Below are positions 53,799 through 63,608 of a DNA stretch of 64,000 nt, piece by piece; within the stretch, counting starts at the first letter, position 1; each line of letters opens with the position of its first letter. A program made the translations under genes and the position numbers. Below the pieces are notes generated by a model. That model had not been told where the DNA came from, did no database searches, and saw nothing but the letters and a program-made list of their open reading frames with translations. The stretch lies in assembly GCA_001724025.1 (NCBI GenBank), contig MEDJ01000009.1, positions 167,777 through 231,776 of the forward strand, read 5' to 3'. The DNA is from Acidobacteria bacterium SCN 69-37. Lineage in GTDB: Bacteria; Acidobacteriota; Vicinamibacteria; Vicinamibacterales; SCN-69-37.

Positions 53799-54629
53799 AT
53801 GGCTGATGTTGTACTCAAGGGCAGACGCTACGACCTGGGAACGATGCTGCCGTTCCTCTTCATGCACGCGTCGGTCCTGCTCGTGCTCACCGTTCCGTTC
53901 TCGCTCGAGATGATCGCCTGGTTCGCGGGGTCGTACTACCTGCGGATGTTCGGCGTCACGGGCGGCTACCACCGCTACTTCAGCCACCGGTCCTACAAGC
54001 TCAACCGCTTCTGGCAGTTCGCCATGGCGTGCCTGGCCCAGACGTCGGCGCAGAAGGGCGCGCTCTGGTGGGCTGCCCACCACCGCGATCATCACCTGTA
54101 CTCGGATCGGAAGGAAGATCTGCACTCGCCGGTGCACGAGGGCTTCTGGTGGTCGCATCTCGGGTGGATCCTCTCCGACGAGTACGACGCCTACGACACG
54201 AAGCGCGTCTCCGACCTCGCGAAGTTCCCGGAACTGCGCTGGCTCGATCGCTTCCACCTGGCGCCGGCCATCGTCTATGCGGTCGCGATCTACCTGATTG
54301 GCGGCTGGGACGCGTTCGTGTGGGGATTCCTCGCGTCGACCGTGGCGCTCTACCACGGCACGTTCCTGATCAATTCGCTGACGCACATCTGGGGCACGCG
54401 CCGCTTCGCCACGCCCGACGAGAGCCGCAACAACTTCGTGCTGGCCGTCCTGACCATGGGCGAGGGCTGGCACAACAACCACCACTACTACATGTCGAGC
54501 GTCCGCCAGGGCATCAGGTGGTGGGAGATCGATCCCACCTACTACGTGCTGATCGCGCTGTCGTGGGTCGGCATCGCGCGCGACCTGCGGCCGTTCCGCA
54601 CGGCCCCCGGCGACGAATCACTGGCCTGA
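53799..54629 (+). CDS. Acyl-CoA / fatty-acid delta-9 desaturase
   Basis: The 276-residue membrane di-iron enzyme has the three histidine boxes HRYFSH, HHRDHH and HNNHHYY with the normal spacing. Hydrophobic helices lie between them. It introduces a double bond into acyl chains, controlling membrane fluidity. The ATG at 53799 starts MADVVLKG. It overlaps the convergent DUF3810 gene by 12 bp. Confidence 0.92.
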   Translation: MADVVLKGRRYDLGTMLPFLFMHASVLLVLTVPFSLEMIAWFAGSYYLRMFGVTGGYHRYFSHRSYKLNRFWQFAMACLAQTSAQKGALWWAAHHRDHHLYSDRKEDLHSPVHEGFWWSHLGWILSDEYDAYDTKRVSDLAKFPELRWLDRFHLAPAIVYAVAIYLIGGWDAFVWGFLASTVALYHGTFLINSLTHIWGTRRFATPDESRNNFVLAVLTMGEGWHNNHHYYMSSVRQGIRWWEIDPTYYVLIALSWVGIARDLRPFRTAPGDESLA

Positions 54630-55694
54630 CGAGGGCGTGTACGCGTCGAGCGCCCGGCGCAGGTCGGGCGACAGGATCAGCGTGAGCGCCCGGCCGTAGC
54701 TCGCGTTCCCGTCGGCCACCCGGTTCGCCTTCAGGTAATTGTCGTAGACGCGCGACGCCGCGCGCTGCACCTCGGGCCGCTGTCGCGTCATGCGCTCGGC
54801 CATCCTCGCCAGATCCTCGCGCACCCCGGCATCGAGCGCCGCGAAGACCTTCGTCCGCGCCGGACCGGGCAGCGCCCCTCCCGCTTCCAGAATCAGATAC
54901 AGGCTCGCGCTGTACGCCAGGGCCGGATCGCCCTTCATGCACGCCAGCCAGCCGACGGCGCTGGCTTCCGCCTCGTCGGCATAGCCGGCCAGGTGGGCCC
55001 ACTCGTGCGCGAGCACGAACCCGCGCTCGAACGGCAGCAGATCCGCCTGCACGATCGATTCGAGGACCAGCGGATTGAGCATGCCGTTGATCCCGGCCCA
55101 GGTGAAGAACGGCGAGAGAATCAGCGAGAACTTCGGACGGCCCGGCCGGAACATCGTCGGCCTGTCGATGGCCTGCAGCGCGGCGTGCATCGGCCCGCGC
55201 AGCCGATCGGCCGCCTGCGCGTACGAGATCGCGGACAGATCGCCCAGGCGCGGCCGGAGCCGGGCCGCGAGGGCGTTCGCGTCACCGATGGCTGCCGTGA
55301 GCGCCGCGACGCTCGGGGGCGCCGGGGCCGTCAGCGTGTCGGCGAGCGGCACGCGCCTGTAGTTCAGGCCCCACCCCAGCATGAACAGCAGGACGACGAC
55401 GGCGACGCCGCGCAGCAGGCGCCGGAGGCCTTCCCAGAGTTCGGGGAGCAACCCGCGGCGACCGCGCCACACGAACACGAGGCGGAGGACGACCAGGATC
55501 AGCAGCCCGACGATCATCGGATCGAGCAGCGCGATCGGGACGAGGTTGCTGGCGAACGTGACGCCGTTCTGCCACCACGGGTACACGCCCCGCGCGTAGA
55601 CGGTCTCGACCACGCGCGCCGGCACCGGCGCGAGCGTCACGATCGCCGCCAGCACCGACAACACGAGCCAGCCGGGGGCCGGACGCTTCCTCAT
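54618..55694 (-). CDS. DUF3810 family membrane metallopeptidase-like protein
   Basis: The 358-residue protein has an N-terminal signal/membrane segment, further hydrophobic helices (IVGLLILVVLRLVFVW, RGVAVVVLLFMLGWGLNY) and a soluble domain. That domain carries HEWAH followed by GYADEAEASAVGWLAC, a gluzincin-type arrangement. The DUF3810 family has no known function. Its start overlaps the NDH-2 stop by 4 bp (ATGA), and the Yip1 gene precedes NDH-2, so these three form an operon. Confidence 0.78.
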   Translation of the reverse strand: MRKRPAPGWLVLSVLAAIVTLAPVPARVVETVYARGVYPWWQNGVTFASNLVPIALLDPMIVGLLILVVLRLVFVWRGRRGLLPELWEGLRRLLRGVAVVVLLFMLGWGLNYRRVPLADTLTAPAPPSVAALTAAIGDANALAARLRPRLGDLSAISYAQAADRLRGPMHAALQAIDRPTMFRPGRPKFSLILSPFFTWAGINGMLNPLVLESIVQADLLPFERGFVLAHEWAHLAGYADEAEASAVGWLACMKGDPALAYSASLYLILEAGGALPGPARTKVFAALDAGVREDLARMAERMTRQRPEVQRAASRVYDNYLKANRVADGNASYGRALTLILSPDLRRALDAYTPSSGQ

Positions 55695-56983
55695 GACCGC
55701 GGCATCGCGTCGTCGGCGTCGGCGTCGGCCGTATCGAACGTGATGAGACGGACCGACCGCTGGAACGTGATGTACGAGAAGGCCCACTGCGTGAGGACCG
55801 ACAGCCGGTTGCGGAACCCGACCAGGTTCATCACGTGTACGAACAGCCAGAACAGCCAGGCCAGGTAGCCCTTGAACTTCCAGCCCGGCAGATCGGCGAC
55901 GGCCTTGTTCCGGCCGATCGTGGCCAGGTTGCCCAGATTGCGATAGCGGAATGGCTGCGTCGGCTCGCCGCGGAGCTGGCGCGCGAGGTTGGCCCCGGCC
56001 CGCCGCCCCTGCTGAATCGCCACCTGCGCCACGCCGGGCAGCCATCGGCCGTCCGCGGCCTTCAGGGCGGCCAGGTCACCAATGACGAAGATCTCGGGAT
56101 GACCCGGCACCGTCAGGTCGTCGTTGACGAGCACCCGTCCGGCCCGGTCGAGCGGCACGCCCAGCTTCGCCCCCAGCGGCGACGCCGACACGCCTGCGGC
56201 CCAGATGATGGTGCCGGCCTCGATCGTCTCTCCCCCCACGTGGACCTTGCCCGCCGTCACGCTCGTGACCACGCTGCCGGTCCAGACGTTCACGCCGAGC
56301 CGTTCGAGCGCGCGTCGCGCGAAGGCCGACAGATCCTCCGGATAGACGCCCAGGATGTTCGGTCCGCCTTCGATGAGAATCACGCGCGCCGACTCGGGAT
56401 CGATCGCGCGGAAATCGTGCGCCAGCGTGTGGCGCGCGATCTCGGCCAGCGACCCGGCCATTTCCACGCCCGTCGGTCCCCCACCGATCACGACGAACGT
56501 GAGGAGCCGCCGCTGCGCGGCCTTGTCGGTCTCCCGCTCGGCCTGTTCGAAGGCCAGCAGGACGCGTCGCCGGGCGTCGAGCGCATCTTCGAGCGTCTTC
56601 AGGCCGGGCGCGTACTGGTGCCACTCGTCGTGGCCGAAATATGCGTGCGTCGCGCCGGCCGCGACCAGCAGATAGTCGTACGGCACGTCGGTGCCGTCGG
56701 CCAGCCGCAGGTGCCGCCCGCCGGTGTCGATCGACACCACGTCGCCCATCCAGACCCGCGCGTTCGACTGGTGCCGCAGGATCCAGCGGATGGGCGCCGC
56801 AATGTCGCCCGGCGAGAGTCCCGCCGTTGCCACCTGATAGAGCAACGGCTGGAAGACGTGATGATTGCGCCGGTCGATCAGCAGCAGATCGACCGGCGCG
56901 TGCCTCAGCGCGCGGGCCGCCGTGAGTCCCCCGAATCCACCGCCAATGACGACGACCCGGGGAACCGACGTGGGAGTGCTCAC
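55691..56983 (-). CDS. ndh: Type II NADH dehydrogenase (NDH-2)
   Basis: NDH-2 passes electrons from NADH to quinone without pumping protons. The 430-residue protein has the FAD Rossmann motif VVVIGGGFGGLTAARAL, the quinone-site AAGATHAYFGHDEW region and a second NADH-binding Rossmann (VVIGGGPTGVEMAGSL). The membrane-associating C-terminal helices follow (YLAWLFWLFVHVMNLVGF). A short Asp-rich tail is extra. A Rex repressor in the same window could control it. Confidence 0.93.
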   Translation of the reverse strand: MSTPTSVPRVVVIGGGFGGLTAARALRHAPVDLLLIDRRNHHVFQPLLYQVATAGLSPGDIAAPIRWILRHQSNARVWMGDVVSIDTGGRHLRLADGTDVPYDYLLVAAGATHAYFGHDEWHQYAPGLKTLEDALDARRRVLLAFEQAERETDKAAQRRLLTFVVIGGGPTGVEMAGSLAEIARHTLAHDFRAIDPESARVILIEGGPNILGVYPEDLSAFARRALERLGVNVWTGSVVTSVTAGKVHVGGETIEAGTIIWAAGVSASPLGAKLGVPLDRAGRVLVNDDLTVPGHPEIFVIGDLAALKAADGRWLPGVAQVAIQQGRRAGANLARQLRGEPTQPFRYRNLGNLATIGRNKAVADLPGWKFKGYLAWLFWLFVHVMNLVGFRNRLSVLTQWAFSYITFQRSVRLITFDTADADADDAMPRS

Positions 56984-60167: not shown

Positions 60168-63100
60168 CTAGAATCCCTGCCGAATCCCGAGTTGCCAGCG
60201 GAGCTGGCGGTCGACGCGATCGAGCGGGTGGCTGACGGCGAGTTCCAGCGGGACGAAGCCGAAGAGGTTCACGCGGACCGCCCCGCCGACACTGCGCACG
60301 AGCCGGCGCGATCCGCCGGCGAAGTCGGGCCGATCGGCCGCCGTCCACGTCAGCCCCGCATCCATGAAGAACGCGACGTCGACCGGCAGGCGCCCGTACT
60401 CGACGCGTCCCCTGAACAGCCCCGGCACCGGGGCCCGCACCTCGAGGTTGGCCACCGCCATGCGGCTGCCGAGCAGGTTGCGGAAGATGGCGCATTCGCC
60501 GTTGTCGCCGCCGCGCAGGCACTCGACGGCGGAAAACGTGCCGATCCCGTAGCCGTGCACGAACTCGGGATAGCCCGCGTAGAGATCGAGGAGCCGCTCG
60601 TGATCGGCATCGGGACCGTAGCGGCCGTCGTGCATGACGCGCACCGCCACGGTCCACGGCCTGACGGGCATGAAATAGCGACGCCAGTCGGCCAGGACGG
60701 TCACGTAGTCGAGGGTCCCGGCGGTGCCCCCCACCTCCAGCCGCGCGCGTTCGCCGAAGATCGGATGCGACGCACCGAAGAGCGACGTGTCGCGCACGAG
60801 GGCGACACTGCCATAGCCGAGATAGAACGTGGGCCCGAGCGGCACGGTCTCGCGCGTCTGCCCGATCAACGCGCGCCCGTTGGCCGCATCATACGTGGCG
60901 GTCCGCGTCTCGCGACTGAATGACAGCGCCTCGGCGCTGGCCGACGCCTCGAAGCGCGTGCTCGGGCTGAACGGATAGGCGGCCGTGAAGAAGCCGCCCC
61001 GCACCTGCTGGCGCTCGATGATCGCGTTGATCTCGGTATCGCCCGTCTCCGCGTCGTCGCGGCGCGTCAGGTATCCGATGCTCGTCGGCACGGCAGCCAG
61101 CGAGGCCGCCCAGTTCCACCGGTGCTGCCGGTTCAGGTATGTCAGCTGGCCGCCCAGGTCGGCCAGCGTGCCGCCGATCTGGACCTGCGCGCCGAGTGCC
61201 CGATCGCCCAGCATGTCGCTGAAGAAGGCGGACATGCCGCCCACGACACGCGGCCCCAGCGAACTGACACCGGCCGACACCATCGGCTGGCCCAGGAAGT
61301 CGAGCGCCAGCCCGCGCCTGTACGCGGCACCGTCGACCAGCGGCGTGACGGGCGGCAGCCCGCGATCGGCGTCCGCAATCAGCGCGAACACGTCCCCGCC
61401 GGGAACGCGGCGACCGGGCAGGACGGCCGCATCGGCGGTGGAGGCCGGCGGCACGTCGGCGCGGGTATCGGCCGGGTCGAGGCGATAGACCGCGTGGCCG
61501 TCCCGCTCGAACACGCTGAACACCAGCCGGCCGTCGGACGCCATGCTGAGCGCCGGACTGGTCGACGTGATTCCCGCCACGCCGGTGACCAGCGCCGAGA
61601 TGCGCTCGACCGGTCCCCCATCGATAGCCATGCGATAGAGGTTGTTGACGCCGTCCGGATCCGCGATGAACGTGACCACCCGACCGTCAGCCGAGATCTG
61701 CGGGCTCAGGTGCTTACCGTGCCGGAACGCGGGAATCGGACGCACCTCGTGCGTGGCGAGATCGATCCGCGCCAGGCGCAGCGCGCCGGGCTCGAGCCGG
61801 GCGAGGTCGGTCGTGAAGCGCTCGGTGACGAACACGAGCGTCGTCCCGTCCGGCGTGAACACCGGCTCGAGGTCCGCATACGGGTCGTCGGTCAACTGCT
61901 CGAGGTCGCCGCCGGCGAGCGTCACGCGATAGAGATCGATCACGCCGCCGCGATTGCCGCTCACCACCACCGACGCGCCGTCGGGCGCGAACGCCGGGTG
62001 CAGCGCGTCGTCGAGCGTCTCGAGCCGGATCTCGCGACGGATGCGGCCGTTCGACGCCTGCATGAGCACGAGCACGGGCCGTCCGCCGCGCGTGGCCGTG
62101 AGCGCCAGCGTCTGGCCGTCGGGACTCCAGGCCCCGGCGGAATTGAGGAACTGCAGGCTGTCGAAGTGCGGATCGCTCGCCGACGTCGTCAGCCGGCGGC
62201 GGATGCGGCCGGTGTCGGCATCGGCCAGGAACAAATCGATGGAGAACCTGTTGCGTTCGGAGAAGAACGCGATCGTGCGGCCGTCCGGGCTCACGCGCGG
62301 CCCCACGTTGTAGCGGCCGCCGCCCGTGTCGGGGCCGATCACCAGCCGCGGCGTGCTGGCGACGATCGCGCGCTCATCGGCCATCGCGCGGGTCGTCTCG
62401 AGGATGGCCGCGTGCCACTCGGCCGTGAGCGTGTCGGCGTCGGTGCCCAGCTGACGCGCCAGACCCTCGAGGTCGACGCGCGGGTTGGCCGCCGACCTGA
62501 TGAGCGACGCCACCGCGCGGTCGCCGTATTTCGCGCCGATGTAGGCCCAGAACGCGTGCCCCCAGCGGTACGGGAAATAATCCGGGTTCTCGAGATCGCG
62601 CAGGTGCGGCAGCGTCTCGCGCACGGCCGCGTCGCGCATCCACATCGCCGTCTGCGTGTCGACCGGGCCGAGCGAGAGGTACTCCGCCATTCCCTCGACG
62701 TACCACAGCGGAAACGCCAGGATGCCCGGCACCTGCCCCGTGCGATCGCGCGGATCGTCGCCCGTCAGATCGAACTGGAACGCGTGCACGAGCTCGTGCC
62801 CGAGCACGTGATCGGTGTCGGCGAGCGATCCCGACATCGGGAGCACGATCCGCCGCTTGATCGCCTCGGTGACGCCGCCCGTGCCCTCGCCGATCGCGCC
62901 GTCGACGGTGTTGGTCTGCCGGAAGTGCGCCGAGGCGGCGTAGAGCACGATCGGCTGCCGCCCGCGCAGGTCGTGTCCGAAGAACCGCGAGAGCCGGGCG
63001 TGCCAGCGCTCGGCCATCCGCGCCACGATGTGCGCGGCCTCGATCTCTTCCGGGTAGTAGTAGATGTCGAACCGATCGGTCTGCAGGATGCGGAAGTCGA

Positions 63101-63215
63101 ACGTGCGGTACTGGACCTTGTTCCTGCCGAAATACTGCGCCGTCGCCACGGCCGGCAGGCACAGCAGGCCCGCGACGAGGGTCGCCACGAGACGCAGACC
63201 GTTCCGATCGAGCAT
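60168..63215 (-). CDS. Outer-membrane protein with gluzincin peptidase, beta-propeller and barrel domains
   Basis: The 1015-residue protein has three parts. After a signal peptide (LVAGLLCLPAVATAQ) comes a peptidase MA-like domain with HELVH at 140-144 and the Glu in WYVEG near 174. Residues about 290-590 hold at least six PD40/WD40-type blades with PDG motifs (SPDGRT, SPDGQT, APDGAS, TPDGTT). The remainder is a surface-exposed beta-barrel of the Omp85/BamA-like sort, ending in Phe (GIRQGF). Peptidase, propeller and barrel in one chain is unusual. Its likely site is the outer membrane with the peptidase facing the periplasm. The substrate is unknown. Confidence 0.85.
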   Translation of the reverse strand: MLDRNGLRLVATLVAGLLCLPAVATAQYFGRNKVQYRTFDFRILQTDRFDIYYYPEEIEAAHIVARMAERWHARLSRFFGHDLRGRQPIVLYAASAHFRQTNTVDGAIGEGTGGVTEAIKRRIVLPMSGSLADTDHVLGHELVHAFQFDLTGDDPRDRTGQVPGILAFPLWYVEGMAEYLSLGPVDTQTAMWMRDAAVRETLPHLRDLENPDYFPYRWGHAFWAYIGAKYGDRAVASLIRSAANPRVDLEGLARQLGTDADTLTAEWHAAILETTRAMADERAIVASTPRLVIGPDTGGGRYNVGPRVSPDGRTIAFFSERNRFSIDLFLADADTGRIRRRLTTSASDPHFDSLQFLNSAGAWSPDGQTLALTATRGGRPVLVLMQASNGRIRREIRLETLDDALHPAFAPDGASVVVSGNRGGVIDLYRVTLAGGDLEQLTDDPYADLEPVFTPDGTTLVFVTERFTTDLARLEPGALRLARIDLATHEVRPIPAFRHGKHLSPQISADGRVVTFIADPDGVNNLYRMAIDGGPVERISALVTGVAGITSTSPALSMASDGRLVFSVFERDGHAVYRLDPADTRADVPPASTADAAVLPGRRVPGGDVFALIADADRGLPPVTPLVDGAAYRRGLALDFLGQPMVSAGVSSLGPRVVGGMSAFFSDMLGDRALGAQVQIGGTLADLGGQLTYLNRQHRWNWAASLAAVPTSIGYLTRRDDAETGDTEINAIIERQQVRGGFFTAAYPFSPSTRFEASASAEALSFSRETRTATYDAANGRALIGQTRETVPLGPTFYLGYGSVALVRDTSLFGASHPIFGERARLEVGGTAGTLDYVTVLADWRRYFMPVRPWTVAVRVMHDGRYGPDADHERLLDLYAGYPEFVHGYGIGTFSAVECLRGGDNGECAIFRNLLGSRMAVANLEVRAPVPGLFRGRVEYGRLPVDVAFFMDAGLTWTAADRPDFAGGSRRLVRSVGGAVRVNLFGFVPLELAVSHPLDRVDRQLRWQLGIRQGF

Positions 63216-63308: not shown

Positions 63309-63608
63309 ATGTCAGAGGCACACGCCGAAGGCCGCCGGGTCTTCTGCCAGAAGTTGCAGCAGGACCTTCCGGGGCTCGACGCCCCGCCGTGGCCGGGCGC
63401 GCTCGGCCAGCGCATCTACGATCACATCTCGCGCGAGGCGTGGGAGCAGTGGGAAGAGCGGATGAAGATGGTCCTGAACGAGTACCGCCTGCTGCCGTTC
63501 CAGAAGGAGGCCCAGACGCTCATCGTCCAGCAGATGGAAGAGTTCCTGTTCGGCCAGGCGGCCTCGCTGCCGCCCGGGTACGTGCCGGAGTCGCCGGCCG
63601 GCCAGTAG
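63309..63608 (+). CDS. yggX: YggX-type Fe(2+)-trafficking / oxidative-damage protection protein
   Basis: The 99-residue protein carries the YggX signature [38 protein letters not shown], followed by [26 protein letters not shown]. YggX protects Fe-S enzymes and moves iron. The ATG at 63309 has a purine-rich GGACGTGGAGAG upstream. The Ala/Pro C-terminal tail is a little longer than usual. Confidence 0.9.

Follow-up and report, generated by a model that had tools for sequence, protein, structure and literature searches.

A single gene in the window (the whole 64,000-nucleotide stretch of DNA analysed here) encodes, as judged from predicted folds, one chain in which a signal peptide is followed by an MA-clan zinc peptidase, a TolB-like propeller and an Omp85/BamA-type barrel (Table 1). 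The architecture is no local oddity: it defines a multi-phylum family present in Acidobacteriota, Gemmatimonadota, Bacteroidota, Ignavibacteriota and others, in which the fusion of peptidase, propeller and barrel is close to obligatory. We give somewhat better than an even chance to the reading that the protein is an active periplasmic peptidase anchored by its Omp85 barrel, whatever its substrate.

Table 1. Coordinates in the window of the gene and of the predicted parts of its product.
Feature	Residues	Position in window	Strand	Basis
Whole gene, 1015 aa + stop		60168..63215	-	
Signal peptide (...ATAQ/YFGRNK)	1-27	63135..63215	-	Inspection; AQ-YFG(R/Q)NKV junction conserved in alignment A1
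Gluzincin (MA clan) zinc-peptidase domain	28-286	62358..63134	-	Predicted fold and profile match
HELVH, two zinc ligands and catalytic Glu (predicted)	140-144	62784..62798	-	Relatives' alignment
WYVEG, with E174 as third zinc ligand (predicted)	171-175	62691..62705	-	Relatives' alignment
TolB-like six-bladed PD40 propeller	about 287-586	61458..62357	-	Pfam and AlphaFold model
Linker	587-636	61308..61457	-	DSSP of model
Omp85-type 16-stranded barrel, ending in Phe	637-1015	60171..61307	-	Pfam, model and profile match
Loop L6 between strands 11 and 12	867-917	60465..60617	-	DSSP of model and alignment

The open frame carries the coding signature of a GC-rich genome (GC3 0.91 vs. GC2 0.50), and the identity of its relatives ranges from 73% down to 24%. 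Pfam matches of the window protein include PD40 (4e-23) and Omp85 (PF01103, 1.4e-6), both above their cut-offs; Peptidase_MA_2 (PF13485) is matched with an E-value of 0.001 and 19.4 bits, below the curated cut-off of 32.4 bits. All three domains are backed by AlphaFold models. The full-chain model (21 sequences; mean pLDDT 81.2, pTM 0.76) agrees with the initial annotation, which had read peptidase, propeller and barrel in one chain and had suggested such a prediction as a check; the refuting outcomes named there (no closed barrel, or a HELVH site away from the third ligand) did not appear in the models. No lipobox was seen by eye in the signal peptide of the window protein, and the DSSP string of its AlphaFold model contains no POTRA fold ahead of the barrel.

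Modelled alone from 63 rows, the peptidase domain reached a pLDDT of 87.4 and is predicted to have a gluzincin fold with HExxH and a downstream Glu. The HELVH/WYVEG peptidase proposed from the letters is borne out in the model, where a helix bearing HExxH is followed by another long one that supplies the third-ligand Glu, which is the gluzincin order. The structural matches listed for this model, at 11-18% identity, include M9 collagenases (Z 16.6) as well as M1 aminopeptidases (Z about 14); these enzymes share the fold and the HExxH plus Glu site with the window protein but, unlike it, have no barrel. In a domain profile comparison, HExxH and WxxEG were aligned with the corresponding positions of a microbial collagenase (E 0.0023) and a glutamyl aminopeptidase (E 0.03), both weak E-values. 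The M48 family profile PF01435 is absent from the Pfam matches of the window protein, and the PF01435 places of its own genome do not include the window gene. The 84 rows of alignment A2 all share H140, E141, H144 and E174; 64 of these rows came from a scan whose patterns contain the active-site motif. A profile search in which the motif was not required, covering 149 Acidobacteriota genomes at an E-value of 1e-60, returned 84 places in 72 genomes; the four residues (HEHE) are kept in 82 of the 82 loci read from it, the remaining two places being already in A2, and these loci overlap in part with the 84 rows. Since all 84 places start within the first 30 model positions, none of them lacks the peptidase. 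This domain is the best-conserved part of the chain, with a mean column identity of 50% vs. 37% for the barrel, in row sets that differ slightly. Nevertheless, Peptidase_MA_2 matches only 13 and BSP 17 of 34 family members at an E-value of 0.001, so the peptidase domain would often be overlooked in Pfam-type domain tables.

Structural comparison of the propeller with TolB (Z 26) and with the six-bladed design Pizza6 (Z 23) indicates six blades, as had been proposed for the PD40-type repeats. TolB, which has this six-bladed PD40 propeller in common with the window protein, is soluble, carries its own N-terminal domain where the window protein has the peptidase, and has no barrel; the NCBIfam equivalog for Tol-Pal TolB (TIGR02800) is not reached by the window protein (148.2 bits vs. 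a cut-off of 343.15 bits). In the predicted model, residues 637-1015 match the fold of BamA barrels (Z 22.4 over 300 residues, 4.1 Å) and comprise 16 strands by manual count of the DSSP assignment, which, together with the last residue, upholds the earlier claim of a C-terminal barrel ending in Phe. This Phe is found in 54 of 84 rows, and Trp occupies the position in 28. In its match to BamA (4k3b, E 1.3e-6), the barrel profile keeps RGY and DAG aligned. In Omp85 proteins, the L6 motif is (V/I)RG(F/Y); the window protein reads VHGY (886-889) and belongs to the 8 of 84 rows in which the Arg is replaced by His, RGY being present in the other 76, and G888-Y889 as well as E925/R927 are invariant (84/84). 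A Cys pair in L6 (C899/C908), present in 63 of 84 rows and missing from four sister-class rows and many Aminicenantes rows, is likely to form a disulfide.

At an E-value of 0.001, the family has a match in all 60 genomes searched, the window's own included, some of these matches being propeller-only. A scan of named genomes, with patterns containing the active-site motif, yielded at least 80 loci carrying the family, and the titles among the listed loci comprise Acidobacteria, Aminicenantes, Gemmatimonadetes, Bacteroidetes, Ignavibacteriales, Calditrichia, KSB1, Zixiibacteriota, Fibrobacter and Salinivenus; a search for the same architecture in other Acidobacteriota, the check suggested in the initial annotation, found it there and in further phyla. 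Alignment A2 took in 64 of the 80 listed loci, the other 16 being truncated or near relatives of kept rows (L013, L014, L016, L018, L037 and partial loci stand outside it), and A3, A4 and A5 are subsets with 63, 56 and 34 rows. In the tree of the 84 rows, a long branch separates four sister-class rows, and phyla are clustered yet mixed (6 changes for Acidobacteriota and 5 for Gemmatimonadota), for which paralogy and transfer may both account. Rows labelled 'Gammaproteobacteria' (L074) and 'Clostridiales' (L055) fall inside Gemmatimonadota and Aminicenantes clades, so these labels look wrong (binning or labelling) and the two phyla were not counted. The window's genome itself holds two further full-length members, namely a paralogue at 44% identity (G000:C24) and, 22 kb past the right end of the window, a divergent member of the sister class (26% identity, G000:C9:253910-257059).

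According to the initial annotation, the three domains are usually separate proteins, which does not apply within this family. Among 99 Acidobacteriota genomes, 60 barrel places (found with a barrel-only profile, rows belonging to one gene being merged manually) and 58 strong peptidase places (found with a peptidase-only profile, E-values up to 1e-50) gave 56 pairs at one locus, with G119 scored as a pair despite a frame split in two. The unpaired places include four contig-end cases, two barrels and two peptidases; the other unpaired barrels are a 935-residue member whose peptidase falls below the cut and a 780-residue Omp85 protein with no peptidase match. Outside the pairing are 20 weaker A3 places (E 5e-15 to 9e-7), one of which shares a frame with a leftover barrel. 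In 20 further genomes, mostly of other phyla and selected for holding the family, pairing by eye and by contig succeeded for 39 of 40 barrels and for 39 of 40 peptidase domains, and the single unpaired barrel begins at a contig end. The unpaired peptidase (L319, G212:C4) belongs to a frame-shifted copy with peptidase and propeller and no barrel within the 5 kb read.

Parts of this architecture have published counterparts. An Omp85 barrel that lacks POTRA domains and carries a TolB-like propeller, the make-up found in the window protein, was described as WD40-Omp85 (Heinz & Lithgow 2014, PMC4104836), for which TolB was named as the closest propeller and a BamA-BamB-like platform or fusion was proposed; the available text of that description mentions no N-terminal peptidase, and its 'Metallo' group carries PF00149. 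The family of the window protein is very probably the same as this WD40-Omp85 subfamily, whose propeller-Omp85 core is published and whose N-terminal enzyme domain is apparently unreported; within the open-licence PMC literature, preprints excluded, no description of the three-domain protein was found. PlpD (PMC11116518) likewise has an N-terminal hydrolase fused to an Omp85 barrel, but, as far as the accessible text of that paper goes, it combines a patatin lipase with one POTRA domain and has neither propeller nor peptidase, and no patatin match was found by Pfam in the window protein. BepA and other M48 proteases, which act with BAM (PMC13067283), are periplasmic zinc metallopeptidases at the outer membrane, which is also the function proposed here for the window protein; in the portions available of that source, however, they belong to M48, have no barrel or propeller and act on BAM in trans. 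BamA, TamA and TpsB have N-terminal POTRA domains, none of which appears in the model of the window protein.

Under the preferred reading, the chain would be exported by Sec and its C-terminal Omp85-type barrel, judging from the fold, inserted into the outer membrane. Omp85 topology places both barrel ends on the periplasmic side, so the N-terminal gluzincin and the TolB-like propeller should also be periplasmic, that is, inside the outer membrane, as the initial annotation had supposed and as the analogy with PlpD suggests. The propeller probably recruits or positions a partner protein or a substrate at the membrane, the peptidase would cleave what the propeller presents, and the barrel would serve mainly as an anchor or docking platform. 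A role in quality control or secretion, as originally suggested, is possible. The likeliest use that we can name, a tentative one well short of an even chance, would be proteolytic upkeep of envelope proteins, a role analogous to that of BepA but with a barrel of its own. Bolder, and doubtful, is the idea of a dedicated outer-membrane proteolytic machine with parts distinct from BAM and BepA, in which an Omp85 barrel with a propeller adaptor and a gluzincin of its own, joined in the sister class of Acidobacteriota by TPR and FlgT_M-like lipoproteins, would form a protease-bearing BAM analogue that clears or processes envelope proteins. The characterisation of one enzyme-bearing branch of Omp85, that of PlpD, is recent; a branch that spans several phyla, with an unchanging protease site and an almost exceptionless fusion, would, if true, put the Omp85 scaffold to enzymatic use in a second way. 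The family offers a direct test of outer-membrane upkeep in Acidobacteriota, Gemmatimonadota and their relatives, by way of active-site mutants and the linked lipoproteins.

Omp85 proteins are insertases and translocators, and the fold itself, together with the invariant L6 G888-Y889 and E925/R927, would suit an assembly or secretion device in which the barrel is the insertase or translocon, the propeller plays the part of BamB and the peptidase trims or clears passing clients; the linkage of the sister class to a putative TPR lipoprotein and a second one is also reminiscent of BAM. We regard this device as unlikely, however, and favour an anchored enzyme over an insertase, since conservation is higher in the peptidase than in the barrel, 8 of 84 rows, the window protein among them, have His in place of the L6 Arg, and POTRA domains are absent from the model; moreover, the linked lipoproteins are confined to the sister class and to Acidobacteriota. 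A surface-exposed or secreted peptidase, whose N-terminal domains are moved outside by the barrel or Omp85 machinery and which digests external protein, is a distinctly improbable alternative: the combination of an enzyme with an Omp85 barrel corresponds to the original PlpD model, a type Vd surface/secretion idea, and several family copies per genome would fit such a use, but the enzyme domain of PlpD turned out to be periplasmic, according to the available text of PMC11116518, and the compact propeller and peptidase, some 560 residues together, would need to be threaded through a 16-stranded barrel. Least probable is a pseudo-peptidase whose N-terminal domain binds zinc or peptides without cutting, given that HExxH retains its catalytic Glu throughout the 84 aligned rows and the 82 loci of the search that did not require the motif, two partly overlapping sets.

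The lipoprotein linkage comes from the sister class. In two genomes, the sister-class gene is preceded by a TPR protein and a second protein, which in one of the two genomes has a weak FlgT_M match (the loci include L254:5661-7116), and both a TPR and a FlgT_M-like protein were found in 20 of 20 further sister-class upstream regions (L267-L286), fused in one open frame in three of them (L268, L271 and L272). Many of these upstream proteins have, by eye, lipoprotein-like signal sequences. The FlgT_M-like protein (A6) occurs in 44 of 99 Acidobacteriota genomes, all 44 of which also hold the peptidase-propeller-barrel family, and in none of 50 family-less genomes; at an E-value of 1e-4, it is absent from 5 family-bearing genomes of the 99. 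This co-occurrence has a Fisher p of 7e-23, a value inflated by kinship, and in 36 of the 44 A6-positive genomes A6 lies within 2.5 kb of a family gene. FlgT_M is matched by 8 of 19 A6 members at an E-value of 0.05 (best 3.6e-5, the member shown being below the cut-off). An identity with TolB_N was rejected, as hhalign against Acidobacteriota TolB N-domains gave a probability of 0.7%, so the resemblance of A6 is limited to the weak FlgT_M match. Among the 20 further genomes used for the pairing, mostly of other phyla, A6 was found in three, all of the Aminicenantes group and each time adjoining a family gene, and in none outside Acidobacteriota. A6 therefore counts as an accessory that a single class employs within one phylum, no defining part of the family, and the TPR/A6 pair carries no direct message on the window's own class.

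In the taxonomic order of the window, the TPR-A6 pair is conserved (7 of 7 loci), yet its place is a topA / rplU-rpmA-obg locus (names assigned by eye). Upstream of the sister-class gene of the window's genome, neither a TPR nor a FlgT_M-like gene was found; the pair of this genome sits at topA / rplU-rpmA-obg, away from the barrel gene (L299, G000:C10:19177-19884 and the preceding frame). A second, divergent A6-like gene lies directly behind a gene that resembles, by eye, a heavy-metal RND efflux gene (L300, G000:C19:66139-66687, and L308 in G014).

The window gene stands alone on its strand among metabolic or repair genes, being convergent with a molybdopterin oxidoreductase gene and divergent from genes for Fe(2+) trafficking (63309-63608) and a LigD-type 3'-phosphoesterase (63631-). 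The order of the window gene, the convergent molybdopterin oxidoreductase, NDH-2 and DUF3810 was seen again, in partial form, solely within its own family, and the comparison of neighbourhoods across family loci revealed no operon or linked partner for the window's class. A defence role was dismissed, there being no PADLOC match. Replacement of BamA or of M48 proteases by the window protein is likewise ruled out, because the window's genome also encodes an Omp85 protein as long as a canonical BamA (900 aa frame) and has four strong matches to M48 peptidases. The DUF3810 protein (54618-56045, minus strand), on which no paper was found in the open-licence PMC literature, contains a HEWAH (HExxH) motif and is possibly another metallopeptidase. 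Finally, in at least 11 Gemmatimonadota loci (L098, L076, L123, L080, L083, L114, L115, L066, L070, L099 and L109; 79 of the 80 listed loci were indexed), an MCE gene that is mlaD-like by eye lies at most four genes downstream, in several cases adjoined by a mlaF-like ATPase gene; being convergent, it was not counted as a link.
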